Virus record (IMG/VR): IMGVR_UViG_3300008117_000043
Location: 1-64,000 of that record
Origin: a virus
Strand: one strand, 5' to 3'
Length of the DNA stretch: 64,000 nucleotides
Both the position numbers and the translations under genes were made by a program. Numbering within the stretch: the stretch's first letter is position 1; every line of letters begins with the position of its first letter. A model generated the notes under the pieces. The model worked only from the letters and a program-made list of their open reading frames with translations. It made no database searches and was not told the origin of the DNA. Positions 9,967 to 63,938 of this stretch are shown here, in pieces.

Positions 9967-12315
9967 TTATCTAGCGTAAATGTTGCCATTTAGTCCTTTG
10001 GTTGCTTTAATCTGTCGCTTAGTATTGTCGACCATGTTATTAGTACTTGAAAGCATCTGTGCCATTAGCATATTTAAGCTTTGTAGTGATGTATTGAGGT
10101 CGTTAAGAGTAGCAGTTCCAGAATTTATTGCAGTTGTTTCTGATGGCGTATCTGCCTTTTTGGTAGGCTGAGGCACTTCGGCCATATTCATTTTACTAAT
10201 ACCCTTGGCAAGATTAGCCAATTGATTTTCAGTCATAACAGTTTCTTTACCGTGCAGCATTGCCATAGTACCTGAGCCAAAATCTTCTATAAGTTTACCT
10301 ACACTGCCTACAGATCCGTTTTGTCTTGAGATTGTTGGCATACTTAATACTCGAACGTTTAATCCTTGATTGCCAGTTGCTAGTCTCATAAGTGACGACA
10401 CTGTATCTCCGCCACCTTCTGCTTCCTCAGCAGCCGCTTCTTCTTTCTTTCTTCGTCTATTTTGAACGTCTTCTAATCTACTTTCTCCAGGAGTCTGTCG
10501 AGCTTTTCTTTGCTCTTCGGCAGTCCGTCTGTTACTTTCAGATAGAGCAGCGTCAACAAGTTGTTTAGTTGCACCAGGACCTTGTGCTAATATATTTTGA
10601 AGATACTTATTAGTATCCATATTTTGAGCCTTGGCTTGTTTTTCCATTGTAGCCATTAATGCATCTTTACTTTTATCATTTTTCAAGAACGCCAGTAAGC
10701 CTCTCATCTCTGCAGAGTCAGCAGTTAGTCCTGTACCTCGTTCTTTTGACTCAGCTAGCCCCTTTTGTATTGCGTCTATCATTGATTTACTGTCTGGTCT
10801 TTGATCAGAAATCATACCTAACAAGTTTGTAAGTGCTTTATCAGTTTTTTGTTCGGCTTCTGCTCGTATTTTATTATCTTTACCTTTTGCAGCATCTAGA
10901 GTCTTGTAATAATCGTCAAATGCTTTGCCAATAACTTTGTTATTCTGTAATTGTCCGTAAGTTGCTTTTTGTACGCCTGCAGAAAGATCGTTTAGATTGT
11001 TGGTTACAGCTTTTGTTGTCCTAGTTACACCGTCGCCGTTTGACTTTTGCTCTTTAGCAGTATCTGCATTAATCTTTTCTAAAACTTTTCTTTGACCTTC
11101 TCGAGTGTTAAGATCAACTTTAAGTTCTTTAGCAGTAGCTGCCATCCGATCAGAAAACGCTGCTACATTCTGATTAGATTCTATAGCAGACTGATTTCCT
11201 TGCGATGCTAGAGTCATCATAGCTTCTGATCTTTGATTTGCAGCGTAGGCTATAGCAGCTTCTTGTGTCAGACGTTTAGCAGTAGCTTCGTCGCCGCGTT
11301 TAGCTGCATCAGCTGATGCTTTCATTAATCTTTGAGCTTCACCTCCGGCCATAGCGAACTTTTCTGCCATGTCTTTAGAAGGACGACCCATAGCAAACAT
11401 CTGTTCTTGTAGTTTAGCAAAGTCTGGTCCTGCTATTTTACTGGCTGCGGTCATAGAATCAAATGCTGTTTTTACACCTTCGCCACCTTTTCTTAAGGCA
11501 AGGTCAACTGCTGCTCTTACTTGTCCGTTTTCTTTTTGTTTTCTTAACTCGTCTTCTTGTTCTTTACGACTTTTGCCTGTTATCTTGGCAATAGCATCCA
11601 TCTCAAACGCTAATGATTCTGCTTGTTTTATAGCATTAGCTGTTGCTTCAGCGTCATTTAAATTTAAGCGTTTTTGTTGACTAATTGTGTAGCTTAGGAT
11701 ACTGTTCAAATCTGTAGAGGTATATCCCATTTTGGTCAAATTATCAATTAGACCGCTTTTGTCAAACATCTCCTCACTAGCTTTAGCAAATAACTTTGCT
11801 CCTTCATTAACACCACCTGGTAGTTTTGCAAATGCTGTACTGTTCTTAGCAATTACCTCACTAAACTCTCTAAGAGGTAATCTTGTACCTGCACTGGCCA
11901 TTCTTAATTCTACTAGACTATTTCCAAAAGAAGCACCGGTGTTACTGAGTCCGTCTAATGTGGTTATAGTGTCTTCAAGCGAAGTAACAATGTTACCGCC
12001 CACTTTTGCTATACCGCCAAGTGCTTTACCTATGTGGCTGTCTGATGCTATAAGATTTTGACTGACAATGTTAAATCCATCAGATACTTTAACGCCGCCC
12101 TGCAGCATTTTGCCAAATCCTTCAGACGCAATACCAGTAGCTGCTTTACCTAATCCTAGTAATTCACCGCCTACTGCATCTATTGTTTTGGTCCACTGCG
12201 AAGGAGGTTTTCCGCCTGGAACAGACGGAGCTGAAGGCATTGACGGCCCGCCATCTTTCATAGCACGTTTAAATGCTTCGCTTATAATGTCTATGTCGCC
12301 GCGGTCTAAAGGCAT
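9967..12315 (-). CDS. Probable tail tape measure protein
   Basis: This 782-residue protein is largely helical with long Ala/Lys/Glu/Gln-rich stretches from about residue 150 to 650. The C-terminal part has FGSGTMAMLHGKETVMTENQ, a signature often found near the end of tape measure proteins, followed by a helix that ends the protein. The N-terminus includes alternating Gly/Ala helices (GKAATGIASEGFGKMLQGG) that could be membrane-active. It adjoins the portal gene and is divergent from gp26, the hub chaperone whose T4 partner set includes the tape measure gp29. Homology to gp29 cannot be shown by eye; a structural internal protein is the alternative. Confidence 0.6.
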   Translation of the reverse strand: MPLDRGDIDIISEAFKRAMKDGGPSMPSAPSVPGGKPPSQWTKTIDAVGGELLGLGKAATGIASEGFGKMLQGGVKVSDGFNIVSQNLIASDSHIGKALGGIAKVGGNIVTSLEDTITTLDGLSNTGASFGNSLVELRMASAGTRLPLREFSEVIAKNSTAFAKLPGGVNEGAKLFAKASEEMFDKSGLIDNLTKMGYTSTDLNSILSYTISQQKRLNLNDAEATANAIKQAESLAFEMDAIAKITGKSRKEQEDELRKQKENGQVRAAVDLALRKGGEGVKTAFDSMTAASKIAGPDFAKLQEQMFAMGRPSKDMAEKFAMAGGEAQRLMKASADAAKRGDEATAKRLTQEAAIAYAANQRSEAMMTLASQGNQSAIESNQNVAAFSDRMAATAKELKVDLNTREGQRKVLEKINADTAKEQKSNGDGVTRTTKAVTNNLNDLSAGVQKATYGQLQNNKVIGKAFDDYYKTLDAAKGKDNKIRAEAEQKTDKALTNLLGMISDQRPDSKSMIDAIQKGLAESKERGTGLTADSAEMRGLLAFLKNDKSKDALMATMEKQAKAQNMDTNKYLQNILAQGPGATKQLVDAALSESNRRTAEEQRKARQTPGESRLEDVQNRRRKKEEAAAEEAEGGGDTVSSLMRLATGNQGLNVRVLSMPTISRQNGSVGSVGKLIEDFGSGTMAMLHGKETVMTENQLANLAKGISKMNMAEVPQPTKKADTPSETTAINSGTATLNDLNTSLQSLNMLMAQMLSSTNNMVDNTKRQIKATKGLNGNIYAR

Positions 12316-12339: not shown

Positions 12340-12347
12340 TATAAATA
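12340..12347 (+). promoter_or_regulatory. T4 late promoter, exact TATAAATA (gp26 operon)
   Basis: TATAAATA matches the T4 late -10 consensus exactly and lies 29 bases before the gp26 ATG, with a Shine-Dalgarno GGAG between. It is embedded in the inverted repeat GAGTAT-ATAA-ATACTC. Expected initiation is about six bases downstream, giving a leader of roughly 20 bases. Confidence 0.75.
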
Positions 12348-12364: not shown

Positions 12365-12375
12365 TGGAGTAAAAA

Positions 12376-13200
12376 ATGAGTAATCCGCTACAAAAATACT
12401 TTAGACAACCTAAAGTATTTGTGTCACTGCCCAGCAGAGGCATGTATTATCCTAATGGTTCGTTTATCGGCGATTCTAATAATGTACCAATTATGGGCAT
12501 GACAGGCATGGATGAAGTATTAGCCAAAACCCCTGATGCGCTGTTGAACGGTGAGGCTACTGTAAAAATTATAGAAAGCTGTTGTCCTTATATTAAAAGT
12601 GCTTGGAATGTTCCTAGTCTTGATCTAGAATTATTATTAGTGGCCATTAGAATTGCAACCTATGGGGACAAAATGACTATAGATCATACCTGTAGTGAAT
12701 GCCAGCATGAAAATAGTTACGAAGCTGATTTGAAAACAATAATTGATCATTTAGGCGCCATTAAAGCAGAAAATACTCTAATAATTGACCCTATAAAAAT
12801 TAATATTAGACCTTTAAATTACAAACAAATCACCGAAATTAATCTAAGAAATTTTGCAATTCGTAGGCAATTATATCAAGCACTAGAACTTCAAGATCAA
12901 GAAGAACAGCAAAAAATTGTTGATACAGTCTACGAAGAAATGGCTGCAATCAAAGCTGAATCTATAATTGCTCGTATAGAAAGTGTAGAAACATTAGAAA
13001 ATGTTGTTGATAATGTTGAACACATTACTGAATGGATTAGAAATTCAGATAGAGAACTGTTTGCCAAGGTCACTGAATTCTTTGATCGAGCACAGGCAGC
13101 ATTAGAGATTCCTAAATTTCCTGCTAAGTGTTCTAATTGCGGACATCAAGTAGATCTTGAAATCACATTGGATCAAGCAAATTTTTTCGATCAAGCTTGA
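12376..13200 (+). CDS. 26: Baseplate hub/tail assembly chaperone gp26
   Basis: This 274-residue protein matches the T4 gp26 family: VFVSLPSRGMYYPNG near residues 15-28, GMTGMDEVLAKTPDALLNGE near 41-60 and ESCCPYIKSAWNVPSLDLEL near 67-86. Two CxxC pairs (Cys106/109 in TCSECQ and Cys252/255 in KCSNCG) form a likely zinc site. In T4 gp26 acts with gp51 in building the hub around the tape measure protein. The last codons contain A-AAT-TTT-TTC, a slippery sequence that could extend the protein by -1 frameshifting into the next ORF, giving about 348 residues. GGAG precedes the start. Confidence 0.88.
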   Translation: MSNPLQKYFRQPKVFVSLPSRGMYYPNGSFIGDSNNVPIMGMTGMDEVLAKTPDALLNGEATVKIIESCCPYIKSAWNVPSLDLELLLVAIRIATYGDKMTIDHTCSECQHENSYEADLKTIIDHLGAIKAENTLIIDPIKINIRPLNYKQITEINLRNFAIRRQLYQALELQDQEEQQKIVDTVYEEMAAIKAESIIARIESVETLENVVDNVEHITEWIRNSDRELFAKVTEFFDRAQAALEIPKFPAKCSNCGHQVDLEITLDQANFFDQA

Positions 13201-13202
13201 TC
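13179..13202 (+). promoter_or_regulatory. Candidate -1 programmed frameshift signal in gp26
   Basis: The gp26 frame reads GCA AAT TTT TTC GAT, so A-AAT-TTT (13179-13185) is a canonical X-XXY-YYZ heptamer and overlaps T-TTT-TTC, a second canonical site. Three bases after the first heptamer comes GATCAAGCTTGATC (13189-13202), a perfect palindrome able to fold as a hairpin. A -1 slip bypasses the gp26 stop at 13198-13200 and enters the downstream ORF frame with no intervening stop. Confidence 0.6.
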
Positions 13203-13421
13203 ACTAAATCAAACTCTGACATTGAAAAACTGATCAGCCGCTTTGAAAATCAAATCAAGCAGATAAAACACGAAATTTTTAGAATAAGTTGGTATATGCG
13301 GGGAGGTGTCAGCAGCACTGACCTGTTCTATCTCTACAGTTATGAAGATAGAGAAATACTGGCCAACATCATTGATGAAAATCTCAAAGCCAGCCAAGAA
13401 GCTGGTCTTCCTTTAATTTAA
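13197..13421 (+). CDS. Small tail assembly chaperone ORF (gp51-like position or gp26 frameshift extension)
   Basis: This 74-codon frame has no ATG near its front; the only initiator-like codon is TTG at 13197, overlapping the gp26 stop as TTGA, with no clear ribosome site. Its frame is -1 to gp26 and open back to the slippery site, so it is more likely read as a fusion with gp26. The peptide is helical with the motif FRISWYMRGGVSSTDLFYLY, a pattern I associate with small proteins at this place in T4-like phages. It would be a tape-measure chaperone extension, like lambda G/GT. The T4 counterpart by role could be gp51; homology is not proven. Confidence 0.65.
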   Translation: MITKSNSDIEKLISRFENQIKQIKHEIFRISWYMRGGVSSTDLFYLYSYEDREILANIIDENLKASQEAGLPLI

Positions 13422-13429
13422 AGACCAGC
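13401..13429. terminator. Hairpin over two convergent stop codons
   Basis: GCTGGTCTT (13401-13409) and AAGACCAGC (13421-13429) are perfect 9-base inverted repeats with a loop containing both stop codons of the convergent genes. Because of the symmetry both proteins end in Ala-Gly-Leu-like codons. There is no T-run on either side, so it is at best a weak or factor-assisted bidirectional terminator. Confidence 0.45.
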
Positions 13430-13870
13430 AGCCTGTAGAGCTTTTTTCAGTTCTGGATCTGTTGCAAACTGACTGTAGGAACCTGGTTCTCCGGGTTTAG
13501 CAGGATCTGGTTTAGGACCATTAGGTTTCCATTTACCATCAGCTGGCTGTGTTCCCTGTCCTTGATCTGGTTTTGCAGGATCTCCAGGCTTGTTAGGCTT
13601 TGCATCACTCTTAGTCCATGTACTGAATAGTGATTTGACTTTGTCAATTGGTGCAGTTGCTAGGAAGCCAATTGCATCGCTGGCTTTAATATCTCCAATG
13701 ATTGGATAGGTGATAATCTCTGCTATAGTTTTCTTGCCTTCATCACTGGTGGCCCAAGTCATAAAATAAGTCATAGCAATTTCAGAAGCAATTAATAATC
13801 CAATTCCGAGACCGCCAGTGGCAGCAGTTTCTACTAGACCAAACGCACGAACTAGCCATCTTAAACCCAT
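13418..13870 (-). CDS. C-terminal part of probable internal head/membrane protein
   Basis: This 150-residue frame starts MGLRWLVRAFGLVETAATGG. A Gly/Ala-rich hydrophobic stretch follows (residues 15-40, GIGLLIASEIAMTYFMTW), which could cross a membrane. A Pro/Lys/Gly-rich flexible region (residues 100-135, repeats of KPGDPAKP type) precedes a short terminal helix. The frame is open upstream for another 120 codons without a start, so this is best read as the 3' part of a longer gene whose N-terminus is at 14280. The intact product would be about 287 residues. Confidence 0.5.
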   Translation of the reverse strand: MGLRWLVRAFGLVETAATGGLGIGLLIASEIAMTYFMTWATSDEGKKTIAEIITYPIIGDIKASDAIGFLATAPIDKVKSLFSTWTKSDAKPNKPGDPAKPDQGQGTQPADGKWKPNGPKPDPAKPGEPGSYSQFATDPELKKALQAAGL

Positions 13871-14772: not shown

Positions 14773-15234
14773 TTAAGTGTTAGATGATTTTAAATTGTGT
14801 TCTAGAAGAGCCTGTCTAAGCGATGGTGAACTGCCTACACGTACATTGATTATGCCATTATAGTAGTCGTCAGTTTCGAGAACTCTACGATCAAATTGTT
14901 CTCTTGCTTCAATATAACTACATTCTGACTTGCTTTTACAGTAAAAGAGAATTTCTCTGAGAAAGCGATCAGGACCTAATGTTGTAACATCTTGATTGAG
15001 CCTGTCGTTTGAGCCATAGTATTTTTGCCAATCGGAGTCTATTTTTGACTTAATGCGTTTCTTTTTTTTAGTACCGTTTTTAAGTGTTACTGTTTTATAG
15101 CTAGTTTTACTGAATTTTGCCAGTTTTTTGCCTATATATTTTCTGCCTGTAGCTGTATTAGTGATAAGATACACGAATCCCACACAGTCTTCAGGCAATT
15201 CTGTAACAAGTTGATTTTGATAATACCATGACAT
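14773..15234 (-). CDS. GIY-YIG-like endonuclease
   Basis: This protein of about 153 residues opens MSWYYQNQLVTELPEDCVGF. It shows the GIY-YIG pattern as VYL (residues 21-23) and YIG (33-35), with a following KYYGSNDRL element typical of these nucleases and an acidic/aromatic C-terminal part (EAREQFDRRVLETDDYYNG). It probably cuts DNA, and may be a free-standing homing-type or repair nuclease. ATG at 15234 is preferred over TTG at 15237. It follows an 81-residue ORF by a few bases and lies just upstream of the hairpin-rich region. Related short proteins occur near gp46/47 in T4-like phages. Confidence 0.65.
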   Translation of the reverse strand: MSWYYQNQLVTELPEDCVGFVYLITNTATGRKYIGKKLAKFSKTSYKTVTLKNGTKKKKRIKSKIDSDWQKYYGSNDRLNQDVTTLGPDRFLREILFYCKSKSECSYIEAREQFDRRVLETDDYYNGIINVRVGSSPSLRQALLEHNLKSSNT

Positions 15235-15242
15235 CAACTTGT

Positions 15243-27900: not shown

Positions 27901-28440
27901 CCACTACCACCAAGCAGCGATGAGTTGTTTAATTTATTATCTACAGATCTTAATAAAATAAAATCTATTAGCGATGAAATTATCTACCATCCTGTCAAAT
28001 ATAAAATTTTATTTGGAAATAAGGCATCTCCGGACCTTCAAGCAACCTTTAAAATTGTTAAAAATTCTGAAAAGGTAGTAAGTGATAATGATATTAAATC
28101 AAGAGCGTTATCTGCAATAAATCAATTTTTCTCTTTGGAAAATTGGGACTTCGGAGATAGTTTTTACTTTACAGAACTAGCAACATATGTGATGAATCAA
28201 TTAGCACCAGATATTGTAAATTTTATTATTGTACCTAATAAATCAAATTTATTTTTTGGTAGCTTATATGAAATTCAAGCAGAAAGAGATCAAATATTTG
28301 TAAGCGGAGCATCTGTGGATAATATTGAAATTATTTCCGCAATTACTGCAACAAAAATTAAGAGCTCTGGTGAAATCTTTATACAATCAACAACACTAAA
28401 TGAACAAAATATTCTTAGCAGCACGATTGGGAGTGTTTAA
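24976..28440 (+). CDS. 6: Baseplate wedge protein gp6
   Basis: This 1154-residue protein is the T4-type gp6 wedge subunit. The N-terminus is diagnostic: LLVAEDWKRIYQSYRNADFQ, SYLRENYPEDFNDYIESSEY, LALIDLIAFLGQNVAFRVDL, and NARENFLELAERRDSVLRLA. A middle region (PATYYTQNRMITAEDYNISP near 420) is the gpJ-like wedge motif. It is much longer than T4 gp6 (660 residues), with extra beta-rich inserts from about residue 550 to 950. Its stop shares a base with the next start (TAATGG). Confidence 0.93.
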   Translation: MSATDRQNRLLVAEDWKRIYQSYRNADFQSYDFENLRRTMISYLRENYPEDFNDYIESSEYLALIDLIAFLGQNVAFRVDLNARENFLELAERRDSVLRLARLLSYTPKRNIPASGLLKFTSVSTTQTVVDSNGRNLSGQTVLWNDPANTNWYDQFIKIINAAIPASKQFGNPDDKKTVYGVPTEQYRFQSVNADVPVYSFTKTVDGRNMDFEIVSTVFTGADEIYEESPSVANNLAFLYREDGKGPASNSTGFFLHFRQGTLNQGTFTITQPSTNEVVDLDAVNVNNSDMWLYKIDNNGFETEQWAKVPSLEGNNIIYNSLQKNIKNIFTVITRSSDRVSLSFSDGTFGNLPLGTFRVYYRISNGLNYTINPKDVRGITIDIPYVSNIGQVETLTITMSLQTSVANSAASETNAEIKNNAPATYYTQNRMITAEDYNISPLSVSQSVAKIKSINRSSSGISRYFDLVDPTGKYSKTNLFADDGAVYIEKFIDNFKFSYLTRTDIESVIYNEISSILEKNTLRDFYYSEFPNVDTAPVDVKWINVTSDTNQSTGYFTDLSEIIPFKTGAFTTTELKHIEFGALLKFVVPNSATQYFDTSDSNKIVTTTENTSLIPNASSVLWTKVVSVYGDGTNNNTGIKPDGAGTVLLNDVIPSNAVLQQIIPRWRTSLETTVVSTMVDLIYSNKPFGLRYDVNTKTWKIIFEANLNQSTTFSLGKAGDIGNSKLDNSWIFLFTTDTEYYTVQYRQLRYIFESDKQIRFYFDASDKVYDVKSNTTIKDKIKILRINTRPSLTIPYTLDLDWEISEEFKGLDGYVDTKKIQITFTDTDEDSVVDNPELFEQLINKSSSKYYVVLEKYSIAQGQEDYRYLSNTGEVIILPSESSVINFNDYNDSQHFYFVDTDVVKKLNLSQGKLSFSDSYRVFQGRDNLNFQYIHNADYESRIDPGLTNIVDIFVLTKNYDKEYRRYLQGSLTTEPLPPSSDELFNLLSTDLNKIKSISDEIIYHPVKYKILFGNKASPDLQATFKIVKNSEKVVSDNDIKSRALSAINQFFSLENWDFGDSFYFTELATYVMNQLAPDIVNFIIVPNKSNLFFGSLYEIQAERDQIFVSGASVDNIEIISAITATKIKSSGEIFIQSTTLNEQNILSSTIGSV

Positions 28441-31400
28441 TGGCATACGATAAAAATCAAAATGAGAACGGTGTCCCTATAAATTCAAACGAAAAAAGAA
28501 GATCGTCAAGTCTTCTTCCTAGATTTTATAGAACAGATGCTAACAAAAAATTTACCGAAGCCACTATAGATCAACTAACACAGCCTGGAAAAGTTAAAAA
28601 AGTAAATGGCTACATTGGAAGAAAAAACGCCAAAGCAGTCACGGCTAGCGATATTTTTATTGAAGCATCGGATATTGATAGATCTAATTATCAACTTGAA
28701 CCTGCAGCAATTATTCAAGACTACTTAGGCAATGTATCATTTTTAAAAGATTATATAGATCACATTAATCATGTTAAGATCAATAACGGAATCGTTGATA
28801 ACCATGAGAGATTAAACAAGCAAGAATTTTATTCTTGGGAACCTCATATCTGCTGGGACAAATTTGCTAATTTTCAACAGTATTTTTGGTTACCCTATGG
28901 CCCTCCTGTTATTTCTGTAGCAGGACAACAACTAGCAATAGAAAGCACTTATACTGTTGTTACTGTTGACGAGGGAGATAACCGGTCTTTTGTTTTCACA
29001 CCAGACGGATTAAGTAAAAATCCTTCTTTAACATTATACAGAGGACAAACTTATAATTTTATAATTAATTCTCCAGGAGAACCATTCAGTATTAAAACTG
29101 AACGAACTATTGGCTCAACAGATCGTTACTTGCAGGGTGTAAGTCAAAATGCTGTAGAAGTAGGAGAAATTAAATTTTCAATTCCTGAGGACGCACCGGA
29201 CTTTTTATTTTACACAAGTGAAAATAATATTGATACTTCGGGCATATTTAAAATACAAGACATTACAGAAAACACATTTTTAGATGTTGAAAAAGACATC
29301 CTAGGCAAAAAGACTTATACTATGTCTAATGGTGTTTCTTTTAGTAACGGAATGAAAATTAAATTTACTGGAACTGTATCTCCTGAAAAGTATTCTAATT
29401 CTATTTGGTATGTTGAGGGTGTAGGAAATAAAATTACATTAGTAAGCGAAAAAGATTTAGAAATCATCAGCACATATACTTCTGATAGTCAGGTGTTGTT
29501 CGATGACACTCCTTTTGATTTTTTACCTTTTAGTGATGCAAATAGTTTAGCTGCATCAAAAGATTATATTACTATCAATAGATCAAGTCCAGATAGAAAT
29601 CCGTGGGCTAGATATAATCGATGGTTCCACGAAGATGTGATTAAAACTAGTTATGAATTAAATTCTTTAGCGCCAGATATTGATCAGAGCGGAAGAGCAA
29701 AAAGACCAATTATTGAATTTGATGCAGGTGTAAAATTATATAATTTTGGATCAGTTGCAAAGAAAAATGTAGATTTAGTAGATACATTTACTACTGACGT
29801 TTTTAGTACTATTGAAGGAAGTTTAGGTTATAATATTGATAATGTAGATCTAGTAAACGGCCAGAGAATTCTGTTCACAGCTGATACAGATATACGAGTT
29901 CAAGGGAAAATTTTTGAAGTTAAGTTTATCAACGTAAAGCCAGCCAATCGACAAGTTGAATTTAACGGAATTACAAATGTAGAAATTCCGACTAACCACC
30001 TTAATCTTGATATTGATCACGGATTAGTTAACGGAAGACGAGTAGAATATTTGTCAAATGGTAACACTGCAATTGGTGGACTAGTTAATCGCCAAGTTTA
30101 TTATGTTTACGTAGTTGATAATAAAAGAATTAGACTATATTCAGATAAAAATCTAACACAAGTTGTTACCTTAACCTCGCAAAGTGAAGGAAATCACTTG
30201 CTTGATATAGTAACGGTAGCACAAGATCAAATTACTCTAATTGAAACTGACGATACTGTTCCTATTAACGGAGAAACAGTTCTTGTAAAGTTCGGCCAAG
30301 AAAATCAAGGATCAATGTATTATTATAATGGATCCATTTGGAACAAAGGCCAGCAAAAAATAACAGTAAATCAGTCTCCTTTATTTGATTTATTTGACGA
30401 GGATGGAAATAGCTTTGCAGACATTTCTGTTTACGACGGATCAAGTTTTGCAGGAAATAAGATTTTTTCATATAAAACTTCTTCACTTAGTGCCGACTCT
30501 GAATTAGGGTTCGGGTTATCTTATCAAAATATAGCAAATGTAGGAGACATATTATTTGAATTTAATCTATTAACAGATTATTTTCAATATAAAGAAAACT
30601 TTGTTACACTATCAAAAAATACAGATACTGGATTTTTAAAAATTATTCACGGATATAATCTTGAAGAATATTCTAATGGATGGTGTAAGAATTTAATTAC
30701 TAATGCTCAACCTATTATTAGAATTTACGAAGGTACAGAATATAAGAATAACTTTCCTATTGACGTATACGATAATGCAAACGATTTATTAGATCTTGAA
30801 GTTAGAGTTTTAATTAACGGTAAAAGAATTCCAAAGACTGCGTTTACTGTAGAAACAGGAATAAACTACAAATACGTATCGCTTAATCAAAACAGTAGAA
30901 TAACAATTACAGATTCAGATGTAATAACCTTAAAATGCTTTGCAAAACAAGCTAAGAATAAAAAAGGATATTACGAAATACCTTTAAGTTTACAAAATAA
31001 TCCTTTAAACAATAATTTACAATACTTTACTTTAGGCGAAGTTATTGATCATGTATCTTCAATCTCTGAAAATATTCCAGGATTTGTAGGAAATTATATT
31101 GGACAAGGTAATCTTAGAGACTTAGGAGACACATCCTCGTACGGTACACGGTTCGTTCAGCACACATGTCCGTTAAATTTTAGTCTTTATCATCTTGGTT
31201 CAAAAACTGCTAATGTTCTAAAATCTGTTGAAGACGCTAAAGAAACGTATGCAACATTCAAAAGATTATTTTTAAGACTAGCCGAAGAATCAGGTTCTGG
31301 CAGCAATATTAGGGACCATGTTGATGAGATTTTATATCAAATAAATCAACAGACTCCTAAAACAAATCCTTATTATCTAAGCGATATGTTTGCCTATGGA

Positions 31401-34400
31401 CCAAGTAAAAAAACTGAATATCCTGTGTTGGATTCTCGTGTAAAGATGTACCCAATTTCTGATGTATTTGATATGTCAGCATTATCAAATAAGTCAGTTT
31501 TAGTTTATCTAAATGGTGAACAACTACTTTACGGATTGAATTATACCTTTACTTCTTCAGGATATTTAGAAATCATCTTAGACATCAACGAGGATGACTT
31601 GATTGAAGTATATGAGTACGAGTCAACTGACGGAACTTTCGTACCTCCTACACCAACAAAATTAGGCATCTGGCCAAAGTTTGTTCCTGAAATTTTTCAA
31701 GATACAACTTATATTGAACCTACAGATGTTATACAAGGACACGACGGAAGTATTACTATTGCATTTGGTGATTATAGAGATGAATTGCTTCTAGAGTTAG
31801 AAAAAAGAATTTATAATAATATAAAAATCTCTTACAATCCAGAAATTTTTAACATTGAAGATACTATCCCAGGTTACTTTAGAAATACAGACTATGATTT
31901 AGATGAATACAATCAAGTCCTATCAAAATATTTTTATTACTGGTCAAGCCAAATAGATCAAGATTACACTAGATTACCAACGTATGACAGAACTAACGGC
32001 TTTACTTTCAATTATAGAGGAAACATTGCACCTGACGGAAGACCCGTGCCAGCACACTGGAGAGCAATTTATAAATGGCTCCTTGATACAGACAGACCGC
32101 ATTCACATCCTTGGGAGGTTTTAGGATTTACTATTAAACCTGTATGGTGGGAATCAGTATATGGACCAGCGCCATACACTGCTAATAATAGAATTCTTTG
32201 GCAAGATTTAAATGACGGTGCAGTTCGAGAGCCAGGAAAACCAGTAACTAGAAAGTTGCACTACAAGCGGCCAGGACTGATAGATATGATTCCTGTTGAC
32301 CATCAAGGAAGATTAATAAGTCCGTACGAAACCGGAATGGTCACTGGCGTAATAAATCCAAGCCCAGCCGGATATTTAGAATTTGGAGATCAAGGTCCAG
32401 TTGAGACAGCATGGAGAAGATCAAGTCTTTATCCGTTTGCTGCGCTTCTAGCCTTCTTAACCTTATCTCCTAACAAAACATTAGGAACTTGCTTTGATAG
32501 AAGTAGAATTGTAAAAAATAAAGCCAATCAGTTAGTATACAAAGACACCAATCTTCGTATAAGACTTCAGGATATAATTTTACCTTCGAATGTTAATGAT
32601 GCTACTCGAGAATATTCCAGCGGATTAATAAATTATATCTCTGATCATATTTTTACTATCAACAATTATAATATTTCTAGTTATAAGAGTGACTTGTCGT
32701 CTTTAACAAATAGAATAGTCAGCAAACTTGGCGGATTTACCAGTAAGGAAAAATTTAGATTAATTCTTGATTCTAAATCTCCAACTTCTAAAAATAATGT
32801 ATTTGTTCCGCAGGAGAATTATAACATTGTTCTTAACACTAGCTCTCCAATTAGAAAAATTTCTTATAGTGGAGTTATTATTGTTAAAGTGTCTGACGGA
32901 TTTAATATTGCAGGGTATAATCAAGACGAACCGTATTTTAGTTACTATTCTAAATTACAAGACGGTCCTACTATTAGAATTGGCGGAATAAGCGAATCAT
33001 TTACAGATTTTGATACTAACCAAACTTATGTAGCTGGAAAAGTAATTAGATACAACGGAAGATATTATAGAGTAAAAACTAATCACATAAGCGGAGATAC
33101 TTTTGATAAAGATCTTTATGTCTTATTACCAAGTCTCCCAGAAACAGGCGGAGTAGTTGCCACTCTTGGTAAAGTTTGGGAAAAACGTAAAGTATTAAAA
33201 TTAAGTTACGGAACTACACTTAGTACAATACAAGAAGTGGTAAGTTTTTTAGAAGGATACGGTATCTATTTAGAAGACCAAGGATTTGTATTTGACGACT
33301 TTAATACTAACACTGAAAGTATTTCTAATTGGAACACCAGCTTAAAAGAATTTATGTTCTGGGCTACTCAGAAATGGAAAACTGGAGCAGTTATCTCTCT
33401 AAGTCCTGCAGCAGAAAAAATTACTCTTAATACTGAGTTTTCAGTAGTTAATGATATTAAAGATAGTTTTTACGGATATAACATTTTAAGAGTTGACGGG
33501 CAAAAATTAGATCCTGATCTAACAAGCATTTATAGAACAGATAACAATTATTCAGTAAGTCCTGCAAACACTAGCCACGGAATTTATTCAGCTACTTTTT
33601 ATCTAATACAAAAAGAACATGTAGTTGTTATAGATAATAGAACAATGTTTAATGATGTTATCTATGATTTAGAACCAGGGTATCGTCAAGAAAGAATTAA
33701 AATAAACGGCTACCTTACTCAAAGCTGGACAGGCGGATTTAGTATTCCAGGATTTATCTATGATGAAGCAGTAATTAAAGATTGGGAGCCTTGGACAGAT
33801 TACTCGTTAGGAACAATTGTAAAGTTTAAAGAATTTTATTATAGTGCAAACAAATTTATTCCCGGAGTAGAACTGTTTAATAGTAATGAGTGGAAGCTAC
33901 TATTAGAAAAACCTACACCTAGGTTAATTCCTAACTGGGATTATAAAGCAGAACAGTTTACTGATTTCTATGATTTAGACACAGATAATTTTGATGCAGG
34001 CCAACAAAAAGTAGCGCAACATTTAATTGGATATCAAAATAGACAGTACCTTGAAAATATTATTCGAGACGACGTAAGTCAGTATAAGTTTTATCAAGGT
34101 ATGATTATTGAGAAGGGCACAAAGAATGTTTTAAACAAACTGTTTGACGTTTTAAGTGCAAACGACCAAGATAGTCTTGTGTTTGATGAAGAATGGGCTG
34201 TTAGAGTAGGAGAATACGGTGCAAGTGCAGCGTTTGATGAAATTGAAATTAAACTAAAAGAAGATAATTTTAAAATTAATCCACAGCCAATTGAATTTGT
34301 TAATTCTATTGATTCTAATATTGTTGACTCTGTTTACAGACAAGTGCCAACAGACCTTGTTGTTAGAACAGTTAATTATTCTAGTAATCCTTGGCCAATA

Positions 34401-37400
34401 AGATCTCATAAAACAAGATTTTTAAGAACTCCAGGGTATGTAAGATACGACGACGTAACACTTAGTGTTGATTCTTTACTTGACCTTTTAGATCAAAATC
34501 CAAATGAATTTTCAATAGGAGATTACATTTGGTGCGCCTTTGAAACATTAAATGCAGGCGGCGATTATTGGAATGTTTATAGAATTACTCGAGCACCATT
34601 TACTATTATAGGTGCAACATATGACAACGGAATCTTAACATTTGAATGTGATATAACTCCTAATTTATCTATTGGGGATGTATTTGGATTACAATCGTCA
34701 GGCGACGCTGACGGATTTTATACAGTGTCTGATCTAATAGACGATACTATAGTTGTAGAAAAAGAAATTCCAAACTTTCAAGGATTATCAGGCGCAACTA
34801 GAGAATTGATTTTTGTTAGTCAGAGACTTGAAAGTATTGATTTAGCTAATGAAATTTTATCTACAAATATTAAAGCCGGAGAACTGATATGGGCAGATTC
34901 AAATGAACAGTCTAACAACTGGGCAGTTTGGAAAAATTCTCCAGTATATGCTAAAGTAGAATTAAAAAATGATGAGCCAAGAACCGAAGAAAAATTTGGT
35001 ATTGCCCTAGCTACAAACAAGCTTGGAACTACTTTGGCTGTAGGAACAGAACAAAATAAAGTATTAATATACAATGTATTCAATGGAACTTGGGGAAGAC
35101 TACAAGAACTTACTGTGTCAGCCTTAGGTCCTATAGCAGATTTTACAAATAGCGGCTTTGGAACTAAATTGGCAATGTCAGAAGATGCAGAGTGGTTAGC
35201 TATTGCTGCTCCTCGTGCTTCTAACATTAAAACAACTTACCGCGGCAATTATAATTCAACAGCAAATTATAATGAAAACGACATTGTTCGAGTTGGAAAT
35301 GTTCATTGGCAAGCTGCAACTAACTTATTAGATGCTGAAACATCAACTATTGATCAATTTGCTCAAGACTGGACTCCCGCAAGATTAATCGAAGCAACTA
35401 AATCAGGAACACCTTCTGGCTATGTTGGTCAAGGATTGGTTGTTTTATACAAAAGAATTGCTGATGGAACATACAGAGTAGTAACATCATTTACTAGCCC
35501 TCATCCTGTATTAAACAACGAAGAATTTGGTACAAAGATGAAGTTCTCTCAGTCTAATGGAGAGTATATTCTTGGTATAACAAGTCCTCTATCTGGAAAA
35601 TTATATCTGTATAGATACTCTAACGTAAGTGACGATAGCGGCATTGAGTGGCACATGGATTATGATAGAAGGTATCGTGGCGCCTTTAGCAGTTTAATTG
35701 AGTATTACCAGGGAGATTTAGTATTTTATAATCAAAGTATATATGAAGCAATTGAGGATTTATCTGCCGGTGCATTTGATATTGATCAATGGACAGTAGT
35801 AACTGATAAAAATATATTAGGATATTTCCCCAACGATGTATTAAACATTGAGGACACTAGCCCTGCTTCTGATAAGTTTGCTTATGATTTTGATTTTTCT
35901 TCCTCAGGGGATCGTTTAGCGATATCAGCCCCTAATGCAGACAAGGTATTTGTATATCAGTATAATGGCAATAGCTACGATCTTATTTTACCAGTATTAG
36001 AACCGGCAACAGGCGATCTTGAAGCAAACACAAGATTTGGTGCCAGTGTAGCATTAAGCAGTACTGGAGATTCTCTAGCCATTGGAATTACAGACATAGT
36101 AGGCGCTTCCAACAACGGAAAAATATTTGTCTATGATTTAACTAGCGAAACCTATGAAAAAGCTCAAACTATTCGTAGTATCAGTGATGAGATTGACGAA
36201 AGATTTGGGTCAACTATTGAATTCATGAATGATGATAAAACACTATTAGTGTTTAGTAAGAAAGGCGACACCTTCCAAGACGGCAGCACTGTTATTCTAG
36301 ATAACGGAAGAATAGATATATTTGACAAGTATTATACTAACTTCATATATGGAGAAAGTTTAACGTTTAATGATTCTTCCTTACTAAAATACGGAGAAAG
36401 TATTGCGGTAGCCGATAGTACTATACTAGTTTCGGCACCAGAGTATGACGATAGCTACGTTGAAAATACAGGAATTGTATATTCATTTAAAAAACTAAAA
36501 ACTCAATACAGTTGGAAAAAACTTTATCAAGAGTCTGCAGTAGTAGACGTTGAAAAAATTAAAAAATTATTCGTTTATAATTCAAGAACAAATACATTAT
36601 TAAATTACCTAGACGTAATAGATCCTGTGCAAGGAAAGATTGCCGGACCTGCTGATCAAGAAATTAAATTTAAAACCTATTTTGATCCTGCGATCTATTC
36701 TTATAGTAATAACGACTTAAACGTAGATGAAGGTTTAGACTGGACGTCGGAACAGGTTGGCGTATTATGGTGGGACTTAACCAACGCAAAATTTTTAGAC
36801 AGCTATGTTGAAGACCTAATATACAGATCAAGCACATGGAATACCTTGCATAAAAATGCAAGTATTGATATCTACGAATGGGTAGAATCAAAGATTTTAC
36901 CATCTGCATGGGACGATATTGCAGATACTGAATCCGGTTTAAGTCAAGGAATAAGCGGTCAAAGTTTATACGGCGATAATGCCTACAGTATTAAGAAACG
37001 ATACGATAGTATTTCAAAAACATTTAAGAACACTTACTATTTTTGGGTTAAAAACAAAGTTACAGTGCCATCAGTAGCAGGAAGAAATATCAGTGCTACT
37101 GATGTTGCAAATTTAATTTCAGATCCAAAAGCTCAGGGATATCAGTTTGTTTCTTTCTTATCAAAGAACAGTATAAATCTTTATAATTTTAAATCATTAC
37201 TTGAGAATAATGATGTAAATCTAAATTTCCAGTATTGGATAATTGATAAGACAGATAACAATTCACATTATCAGTGGAAAATTATTTCTGAAAACGAGAA
37301 TACATCTATTCCTAAAGAGATTGAAGAAAAATGGTTTTACAGTTTAGTAGGCAAGGATGCTAATGATAGACCTCTACCGGATTTAAATTTACCTATTAAA

Positions 37401-40400
37401 TTACGATATGGTATTGAATCTAGGCCAAGACAGAGTATGTTTGTTAATAGATTAGAAGCATTAAAACAACTATTTGAACGTGCAAATTCTGTACTAGCTA
37501 AAAATCTAATAGCAGATGATTATGACTTGAGCGATTTGTTAATGACTGAACCAAAGCCCTCGTCTGTTTCTAGACTTTACGATAGAGTTATCGATACAGA
37601 ATTAGAATTAAGATTTATTAATACTGATAGTCTCCGCCAGGCAATATTAACTCCTGTTATTACTGATGGACGAATTACTGAAGTAGTTATTAGTAATTCT
37701 GGATATGGATATACAACTGCACCGTCTATTAAAATATACGGATCAGGAAAAAATGCAGATATACTACCAGTAATAAACTCAAAAGGCCAAATTACTGAAG
37801 TTTTAATTAATAATCCTGGACAAGGATATTCAGATGGTACACGATTAACAGTAAGATATTATAGCGTACTTGTTAATAGTGATTCTGCTGCTCTTAATCG
37901 ATGGAGCATTTATCAGTGGGATAATGTTTCCTGGTTTAGAGCAAAAACTCAAACATACGATGTAACTCAATATTGGGATTATATTGATTATTATGCTACA
38001 GGTTACAACCAATTTACTAAAGTAGATTATGCAGTAGACGGTACTTATCAGCTACCATTACTTAAAACCAAAATTGGAGACACAGTTAAAGTTAACAATA
38101 TAGGATCAGGCGGCTGGATAATCCTTGAAAAATATGCAGATAGTACAAGTGTTGATTATACTCAAAGTTATAGTGTCGTTGGTCGTTATCAAGGAACTAT
38201 ACAATTTAAAGATAATCTTTACAAATATAAAGAAGGTGGTGTTGGCTACGATGGAAGTTTATTTGATTCTGACGGGTACGATGAATTTGCCTCAGTCGAA
38301 TTAAGAGTAATTTTAAATTCTTTTAAAGATAAAATTTTTGTCGATACATTAAGAGTTGAATATTTAAAACTGTTCTTCTCAAGTATTAGATATGTACTAT
38401 CGGAGCAAACATTAGTTGATTGGGTATTTAAAACTAGTTTTGTAAAGGCAAAACATAATGTAGGTAGTTTAAAACAAAAAGTTACCTACAATAATGATAA
38501 CTTAGATAATTTTGAAGATTATATTAATGAAGTTAAACCTTATAGAACTAAAATTAGAGAATTTATCAGTACGTATAATACAGTTCAAAATACTCCGTTA
38601 AGTCTAACAGACTTTGATTTACAATCTACTATTAGTAATCAGGATACAATTATTCCAGTAAATGTTAGGGTTTCTGAGACCGTAAATGCGGTTCCTCCTG
38701 TAACAGAGATTAGTGGTACTAGTGTATTATCGGAATATCCGTGGAAACATTGGTATGATAATGTTGGATTTACACTAAGTTCGATTGAAATCGTAGATGG
38801 AGGTTCTGGATATATAACAGCCCCAACCGTTATTATAGAAGATAGTTATGGAGTAAAAGCATCGGCAAAAGCATTTATTTCAAACGGACAGGTGTCTAAA
38901 ATTCGAATAATAAATTCCGGAACTAGATTCCTTAAAGCACCAATTGTAACTCTTTCTGGAGGAACAGCCTTATCAGACAATTATGCTAGAGCTGTAGCAA
39001 TTATTGAAAATGGTGTCGTTAGAAGTTCTATGATTAAAATGAGATTTGATAGAACAACTAGAACATATGCAGTAACTAGTATTCTTGAAACAGAAACATT
39101 CTCTGGCGACATTCAAGTAACAGGAAAGAGGTTACAATTTGATCTAAAATGGGCACCAAATACTGAGGTTGGGAAAACTTTAATTACAATTAATAATGTT
39201 GAAATATTAAGAGATGATTATAGATTAGTTGTTAAGAATACACAAATAAATGGATTTACACAGTACTACGGATCTGTAATTTTTGAAACTCCGCCGACAA
39301 AAGGTGCAACTGTAGTTATTAGATATAATAAATCATCTATACATCTTAATGCTGCGGATAGAATTAATTTTTATTACGATCCTCAGACTGCTCAATTAGG
39401 TAAGCAACTAAGTCAATTAATGACAGGCGTTGACTACGGTGGCGTAAACATAGTTGGTCTTGATTTCAATATACAATACGGCTGGGATAACTTACCTTGG
39501 ATGACAATTCCGTGGGACACATTTGATGATTCTTTTGATGATTATGTCTATACCGGTGCGAATTATGAAGTAGTTTTAGATTATGTTCCTGCATTAAATG
39601 AAGAAATTAACGTTTATATTAGTAGGTACGATCCTGAGGACCTAAGGTCTGTGAACGGTTATTTGCCGCCTGTTAGAATCGACAACTATGATTATGAAGG
39701 TGTTCCTATTCCTGGATACCCTGATGCAGTAATGGCTACATTTGTAGGAGACGGAGTAAACCAAACAGTGGTGATCCCCGAAGATAAAATTACAATTAAC
39801 AGCAATGATATTGTTATTGTAAGACGATCAACAAGCGATGGCAGCTATAAACCTTTAGAAACTAACTATGACATACGTCTTGACGGAGGACCAATTGATT
39901 ATTCATCTGCTACAGGGTTAAATGCAGATGATATTATTATTGACGGTGACGGATTCGTTACACCAACGTCAAGTTCGGCACCCGAAGAAGTTGTACCAGG
40001 ACATATTTCTGACACTGTAGCAATTAAAGTTTATAATAGACCAACAAGCGGGTCTGCAAAAATTATCTCTAAAAATTACAAAGGAGACAATTCAACATCT
40101 AGTTTTACCCTTGATCAGATTCCAAATGGAAATGCTGTATTAATTGTAAAATTGGACGATCAAATTTTAACCAGAGGTGTTGATTATCAGTACGATTGGA
40201 AACTAAATGAAGTTAAGTTAACAGCAGCAGCGTCTAATACACAGATAGTTAACATTACATCTTTTGGATTAAATTCATCTAATGTAGTTGATTTAGATTA
40301 TTTTATAGCTGACGGTGTTTCAACAGAATTCATAACTAGAGCATCTTGGTCAAGTAATTTTGAAGGATTCGTTCTAGTTAACGGCGAAGCAATAGACTAT

Positions 40401-63930: not shown

Positions 63931-63938
63931 TATTTATA
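63931..63938 (-). promoter_or_regulatory. T4 late promoter, exact TATAAATA
   Basis: On the minus strand TATAAATA matches the late consensus exactly and lies about 41 bases before the ATG at 63890. A small hairpin GCTAGT/ACTAGC (63911-63926) lies between. This should make the 450-residue protein, hydroxylase and SGNH pair late genes. A weaker CTAAATAT (63926-63933) reads the other way toward the epimerase-like gene. Confidence 0.65.

Follow-up and report, generated by a model that had tools for sequence, protein, structure and literature searches.

The locus examined here raises the question of whether a gp26-like gene simply ends at its stop codon, or whether some ribosomes leave its frame a few codons earlier and go on to make a longer protein. 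The gene lies in a window of 64,000 nucleotides (the whole stretch of viral DNA that was analyzed, positions 1 to 64,000 of IMG/VR record IMGVR_UViG_3300008117_000043), and we conclude, with a probability of about 0.93, that one gene of this T4-like phage makes both tail assembly chaperones by a −1 frameshift on the heptamer T_TTT_TTC. It occupies positions 12376 to 13200 of the plus strand, has a GGAG upstream of its ATG that we read from the sequence as the ribosome-binding sequence (12366–12369, plus strand), and encodes 274 aa. Its assignment as the short form of the tail assembly chaperone (TAC-N) follows from matches to PF12322 (T4_baseplate; E = 4.4e-18, 66.2 bits against a cut-off of 24.5) and to phrog_150 (baseplate hub; E = 2.2e-20), and from a predicted fold that resembles A0A6J5KPC0, a T4-like protein of baseplate hub assembly (TM 0.88, relative to the query). 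When that fold was compared with the PDB by Foldseek, nothing was returned at E ≤ 0.001, and a sequence search against solved structures gave a single match, to tubulin-specific chaperone C at E = 4.7.

The 3′ end of the gene reads AAT TTT TTC GAT CAA GCT TGA and holds two overlapping heptamers, A_AAT_TTT (13179–13185, plus strand) and T_TTT_TTC (13182–13188, plus strand), both in frame with gp26, so that the double slippery site near the stop described in the original prediction is indeed present. The stop itself occupies 13198–13200, 9 nt beyond the end of T_TTT_TTC. The −1 frame is open across both heptamers and closes with a stop that finishes at 13421; the part read after the slip (TAC-C; 13188–13421, plus strand) comprises 77 codons and the stop, and the fusion would be 348 aa long, in agreement with the predicted pair of a 274-aa product and an extended form of about 348 aa. 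The window has 56 ORFs that reach 100 aa, and gp26 is the only one of them in which a heptamer of the type XXXYYYZ stands no more than 15 codons from the stop with more than 11 open −1 codons behind it: the two gp26 heptamers are followed by 78 and 77 such codons, and the next-best ORF by 11.

We searched IMG/VR with gp26 peptides that excluded both the heptamer and the extension, and obtained 69 loci, 3 of which run off their contig end. T_TTT_TTC was found in frame, 1, 3 or 4 codons upstream of the gp26 stop, in all 66 loci that contain this stop, and the extension was complete in 65 of them (the remaining one, L046, is cut by its contig end). After the complete loci and the window had been grouped at 95% nucleotide identity, 37 clusters resulted. 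Counted from the heptamer, the extension is exactly 77 codons long in every cluster, whereas the distance to the gp26 stop is 3, 9 or 12 nt; what fixes the frame is thus the heptamer rather than the stop. A_AAT_TTT occurs in 21 of the 37 clusters, and so only one of the two slippery sites put forward for the window is conserved. This comparison of the heptamer and the downstream ORF across phages had been suggested beforehand, together with the pattern that would speak against frameshifting, namely an unconserved heptamer beside a downstream ORF that starts from an ATG and ribosome site of its own, and that is not what the relatives show.

The extension itself has the properties of a coding sequence. 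Outside the short overlap with gp26, third codon positions in the −1 frame are the most variable (0.549, compared with 0.339 and 0.193 for the other two), and the mean numbers of stops in the two other frames of the same stretch are 6.9 and 9.6. Synonymous sites approach saturation (mean pS 0.75), and across the 59 non-saturated pairs the median dN/dS was 0.30 and the maximum 0.62; the extension is therefore under purifying selection. Ten of its residues are invariant in the 37 clusters, including the W, M, R, G and G of the motif WYMRGG. Modelled alone, the extension is predicted to be helical (mean pLDDT 86.7), and a Foldseek comparison of this model with the PDB gave nothing at E ≤ 0.001.

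These observations also bear on readings other than frameshifting. One could suppose that the heptamer is kept merely for the protein, as Asn/Ser-Phe-Phe, and that the downstream frame overlaps it by chance; the Phe-Phe pair is, after all, itself invariant in the 37 clusters. However, the two codons of this pair, TTT and TTC, are invariant as well, and they make up two of the only three codon-invariant columns (the third encodes Glu) among 100 conserved degenerate columns. TTC is the minor Phe codon, used for 22.5% of the Phe residues of gp26 genes, yet it encodes the second heptamer Phe in 37 of 37 clusters, for which the chance would be about 1e-24 if the clusters were independent, a figure that overstates the strength of the evidence since the clusters are related, although synonymous sites in the extension are close to saturated. 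The conservation of the heptamer among relatives is far beyond chance, and with a −1 frame that evolves like a coding frame, we regard conservation for the protein together with a chance overlap as extremely improbable. If the frame break were an error of sequencing or assembly, gp26 and the extension would be one ordinary ORF, and the run of six Ts in which the break lies is where such an error might be looked for; but 66 of 66 loci, drawn from many assemblies, share the break, as do 21 phage records, and the −1 register stays constant although the distance to the gp26 stop varies, leaving a negligible chance for this explanation.

Translation of the downstream frame as a separate small gene, by re-initiation at the gp26 stop or from another weak start, deserves somewhat more attention but is still improbable. 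The original prediction held that this frame has no ATG, and there is none before its conserved part, but in the window the gp26 stop shares bases with a TTG at 13197 (TTGA), so that re-initiation would be possible for the window phage taken alone. Moreover, databases annotate the frame as a CDS of its own in many relatives (e.g., gp51 of S-PM2 and P-SSM2, or gene 595 of 121Q), and in 7 of the 37 clusters a Shine-Dalgarno-like tetramer precedes a candidate start within the first 25 codons. No start codon is conserved, however: counting ATG, GTG and TTG, the first 25 extension codons are devoid of starts in 18 of the 37 clusters, and the first 34, up to the WYMRGGV motif, in 14. Separate initiation thus cannot be the general mechanism, and it was rejected as such on these missing starts and on the fixed length from the heptamer to the end, which is set from the heptamer rather than from the gp26 stop. 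The invariance of the synonymous positions of the heptamer also argues against a separate gene, as does T4 gp51, in which the C-terminal part is fused in a single frame.

If frameshifting takes place at T_TTT_TTC, an RNA structure downstream, expected about 5–9 nt past such a site, might stimulate it, and the palindrome GATCAAGCTTGATC (13189–13202, plus strand), capable of forming a 5-bp hairpin of −2.9 kcal/mol, had been singled out for its position three bases past A_AAT_TTT, which places it directly after T_TTT_TTC. It is present there, and taken alone it folds better than shuffled sequences (z = −4.5), but as a conserved stimulator it did not hold up: among 87 sequences it is confined to the window and L001, L002, L003 and L013, a near-identical group. 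Given this restriction and the lack of a spacer after T_TTT_TTC, we rejected the palindrome as a general stimulator, although it may have a local effect in the window phage. A longer-range stem in the minimum free energy fold is the better candidate, with a 5′ arm, GCTTGAT, beginning 6 nt past the heptamer (13195–13201, plus strand) and a 3′ arm, ATCAAGC, that pairs with it (13254–13260, plus strand). The evidence for this stem in the window is suggestive: against synonymous recodings, pairing gave p = 0.010 and total energy p = 0.070, and against shuffles the 76-nt region was moderately stable (z = −1.46) and the 66-nt stem region was more stable (z = −2.42). Comparison of positions 12900–13500 with Rfam, up to E = 1, returned no match.

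Across the group, the 70 bases that start three past the heptamer had a mean z of −1.98 relative to dinucleotide shuffles, with 18 of 37 clusters below −2, as compared to a mean of −0.01 and 5.4% below −2 for stretches internal to gp26. Against synonymous recodings, total folding energy reached p ≤ 0.05 in 19 of the 37 clusters and pairing (bases 5–18 with bases 45–86 after the site) in 16; 111 gp26-internal controls averaged z values of −0.31 and −0.03. For 20 other phages the mean z of post-heptamer folding was −1.61 and 8 were below −2 (HTVC008M, at +0.96, was not among these), and the recoding test gave 12 of 20 and 7 of 20, under a null that is less exact here as it uses the codon usage of the window's group. 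We looked for strong helices with a 5′ arm beginning between base 5 and base 10 after the heptamer, and 16 of the 37 clusters have one and 21 do not; in 11 of the 16 the arm begins at base 6 or 7, and the sequences of the arms differ between lineages. Folding of the alignment gave no pairs and hence no common consensus, the stems lying in different registers. In S-PM2 (z = −4.9), P-SSM2 (z = −3.5) and KVP40 (z = −3.9), local folding right after the slip site was strong relative to shuffles, in contrast to the longer-range stem of the window's group.

The arrangement extends well beyond the relatives of the window. By tblastn, 62 phage records contained a gp26 match, and the matches listed were mostly to genomes of about 290 to 600 kb. 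We examined 15 jumbo-type records, picked to differ in host or genus, and found a heptamer and a −1 frame in all 15: TTTTTTC with a continuing −1 frame in 12, TTTTTTT in RAS14 and XacN1, and, in the 595-kb uncultured phage LR756511, TTTTTTC at 63 nt before the stop, a less certain case in which only query residues 16–109 were matched. In the first 14 of these records the heptamer stands 3 to 33 nt from the stop, a wider range than in the window's group. The same arrangement was seen in all six records examined from cyano-, pelagi-, vibrio-, Sinorhizobium and Delftia phages, with TTTTTTC at the end of gp26 in S-PM2, P-SSM2, KVP40 and PhiW-14 and TTTTTTT in HTVC008M and phiM12; altogether, 83 of the 87 tabulated sequences have TTTTTTC and 4 have TTTTTTT. 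One of eight records searched, S-TIM5, had no match to phrog_150 or phrog_634. In the six records the frame after the heptamer bears the deposited name "baseplate hub assembly catalyst" (gp51), except in PhiW-14, where it is a hypothetical protein.

The deposited annotations of several phages would accordingly divide one gene product into gp26 and a small gp51 or hypothetical protein, or omit its second part. The −1 extension appears as a separate small gene in S-PM2 (L113), P-SSM2 (L114), HTVC008M (L115), KVP40 (L116) and phiM12 (L117), and it is missing from the annotation of PA5oct (L075) and RaK2 (L076). We also observed that phrog_634 and phrog_18291 look, wholly or partly, like fragments made up of such extensions.

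How the window gene relates to the two T4 chaperones can be judged from the profiles. Both gp26 and gp51 of T4 belong to PF12322, and on the 282 positions of phrog_150 gp51 matches 13–280 and the match of gp26 stops at 235, which identifies gp51 as the long form, encoded in one frame. In S-PM2, P-SSM2, HTVC008M and phiM12 the phrog_150 match splits into two pieces at the gp26/gp51 boundary. T4 thus has a short form, gp26, and a long form with the C-terminal part, gp51, much like the TAC-N and TAC-NC proposed for the window phage, but it has them as two paralogous and divergent genes rather than as one frameshifted gene, and T4 gp26, unlike that of the window, ends in GLKEFFELL with TTC TTT and is devoid of a slip site. 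In eight large records from relatives in the window's group, two of which carry the window's own gene, we found one PF12322 gene and one extension apiece, with the reservation that the records may be incomplete, so one frameshifted gene seems to replace the two of T4; the earlier suggestion that the frameshift product stands in place of a separate gp51 is strengthened by this count.

Whether the extension is homologous to the C-terminus of gp51 is less direct. By hhalign, the extensions of the window's group matched those of jumbo phages with a probability of 99.1%, and the jumbo-phage extensions matched those of cyanophages and T4 more weakly (85.3%, 35 columns, E = 5.9e-6). Direct comparison of the window's group with the cyanophages failed (1.1% with T4 gp51 included and 3.3% without it), as did that of two Rhizobiales-phage extensions alone (5.5%). 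A profile of six cyanophage-type fusions scored both T4 gp26 and gp51 significantly, and one built from whole fusions of the window's group gave no significant score for either. The extension and the gp51 C-terminus agree in position and mechanism, but their putative sequence homology rests on a chain of similarity with the jumbo phages as its middle link. T4 gp51 had no match among solved structures by sequence at E up to 1. In a T4 review (PMC3004832), gp26 and gp51 are described as hub assembly chaperones, gp51 being essential and of unknown function; if its C-terminal part is the counterpart of the conserved gp26 frameshift product, this points to a role as the long-form chaperone.

One could go further and envision the frameshift as ancestral in the whole PF12322 superfamily, in T4-like cyanophages as well as in jumbo phages of the Rak2 type and others, and perhaps in the 595-kb phage. 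T4 genes 26 and 51 would then be a later duplication, and a stem about 6 bases past the slip site would have been kept in part of the lineage despite changes in its sequence, adjusting how much of each form is made and with it tail assembly. This scenario is tentative, and we would place it slightly below even odds.

Frameshifting as such has precedents. In lambda, a −1 frameshift at GGGAAAG yields short and long forms of the tape measure chaperone, gpG and gpGT; the window phage differs in its slip site, TTTTTTC, and in that its candidate tape measure gene is divergent rather than downstream. Work by Vladimirov and colleagues in 2022 is said to have found frameshifting conserved in several T4-like groups, with T4 using genes 26 and 51 instead, and the genes in question reportedly belong to the same family as the window gene (PF12322, gp26/gp51). 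The mechanism in T4-like tail chaperones is thus already known, and what we add is its presence in many relatives; the window's group is only distantly similar to T4 gp26 and has an extension type of its own with the WYMRGGV motif. For T4-like phages with a short and a long fused chaperone gene instead of frameshifting, the PRFect papers (PMC10274946, PMC10885494) cite Vladimirov, Gautam and Davidson (2022, Virology 566:9–15), and the paper on phage Adele (PMC12846349) cites the same study for T-run frameshift signals in T4-like TAC-N genes. As represented in these citations, the T4-like TAC-N and TAC-NC, with a T-run signal and with short and long forms, resemble what we find in the window phage. 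The Adele paper also describes a −1 frameshift near the end of TAC-N at a T-run motif in Vandenendeviridae and Andersonviridae, although these are different phage families and their motif is GTTTTT as opposed to TTTTTTC (PMC12846349). Among the papers listed in text searches, no title or opening of an abstract described this frameshift in jumbo phages or in the window's group.

Taken as a −1 frameshift on T_TTT_TTC, the locus would work as follows. Most ribosomes would read gp26 to the stop at 13198–13200 and release the 274-aa TAC-N, and a fraction would slip one base back on the heptamer and continue in the −1 frame to 13421, producing the 348-aa TAC-NC, whose C-terminal domain would be the counterpart of the gp51 C-terminus. 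The expected target of both forms during hub and tail assembly would be the tape measure, as it is for gpG and gpGT. The joining of gp26 to the downstream frame and the role in tail assembly were the core of the original prediction, and both are supported. With its invariant slip site, the locus offers a clean and directly testable case.

The presumed client of these chaperones may be encoded next to them. On the minus strand, a divergent neighbor of 782 aa (9967–12315) is a candidate tape measure protein; it had no meaningful family match, and the gene in the same place in RaK2 was deposited as "similar to Enterococcus phage phiFL4A gp48 tail tape measure protein," so that a tape measure function, as originally suggested, is plausible. 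HTVC008M and phiM12 each have, two genes downstream of gp51, a gene whose annotation reads tape measure or tape-measure-like. Upstream of gp26, TATAAATA (12340–12347, plus strand), which we take to be a T4-type late promoter sequence, lies 28 bases 5′ of the start codon, and it occurs just twice in the window (here and at 63931–63938), as compared to 11.5 occurrences expected from shuffles. Elsewhere in the window, 28440–42239 of the plus strand is a single ORF of 4599 aa, whose sole Pfam match at E ≤ 0.01 is CBM_5_12, with the best stretch near the C-terminus, and a 154-aa ORF on the minus strand (14773–15237), near a gp46-like gene, has a start that by eye resembles a GIY-YIG nuclease.
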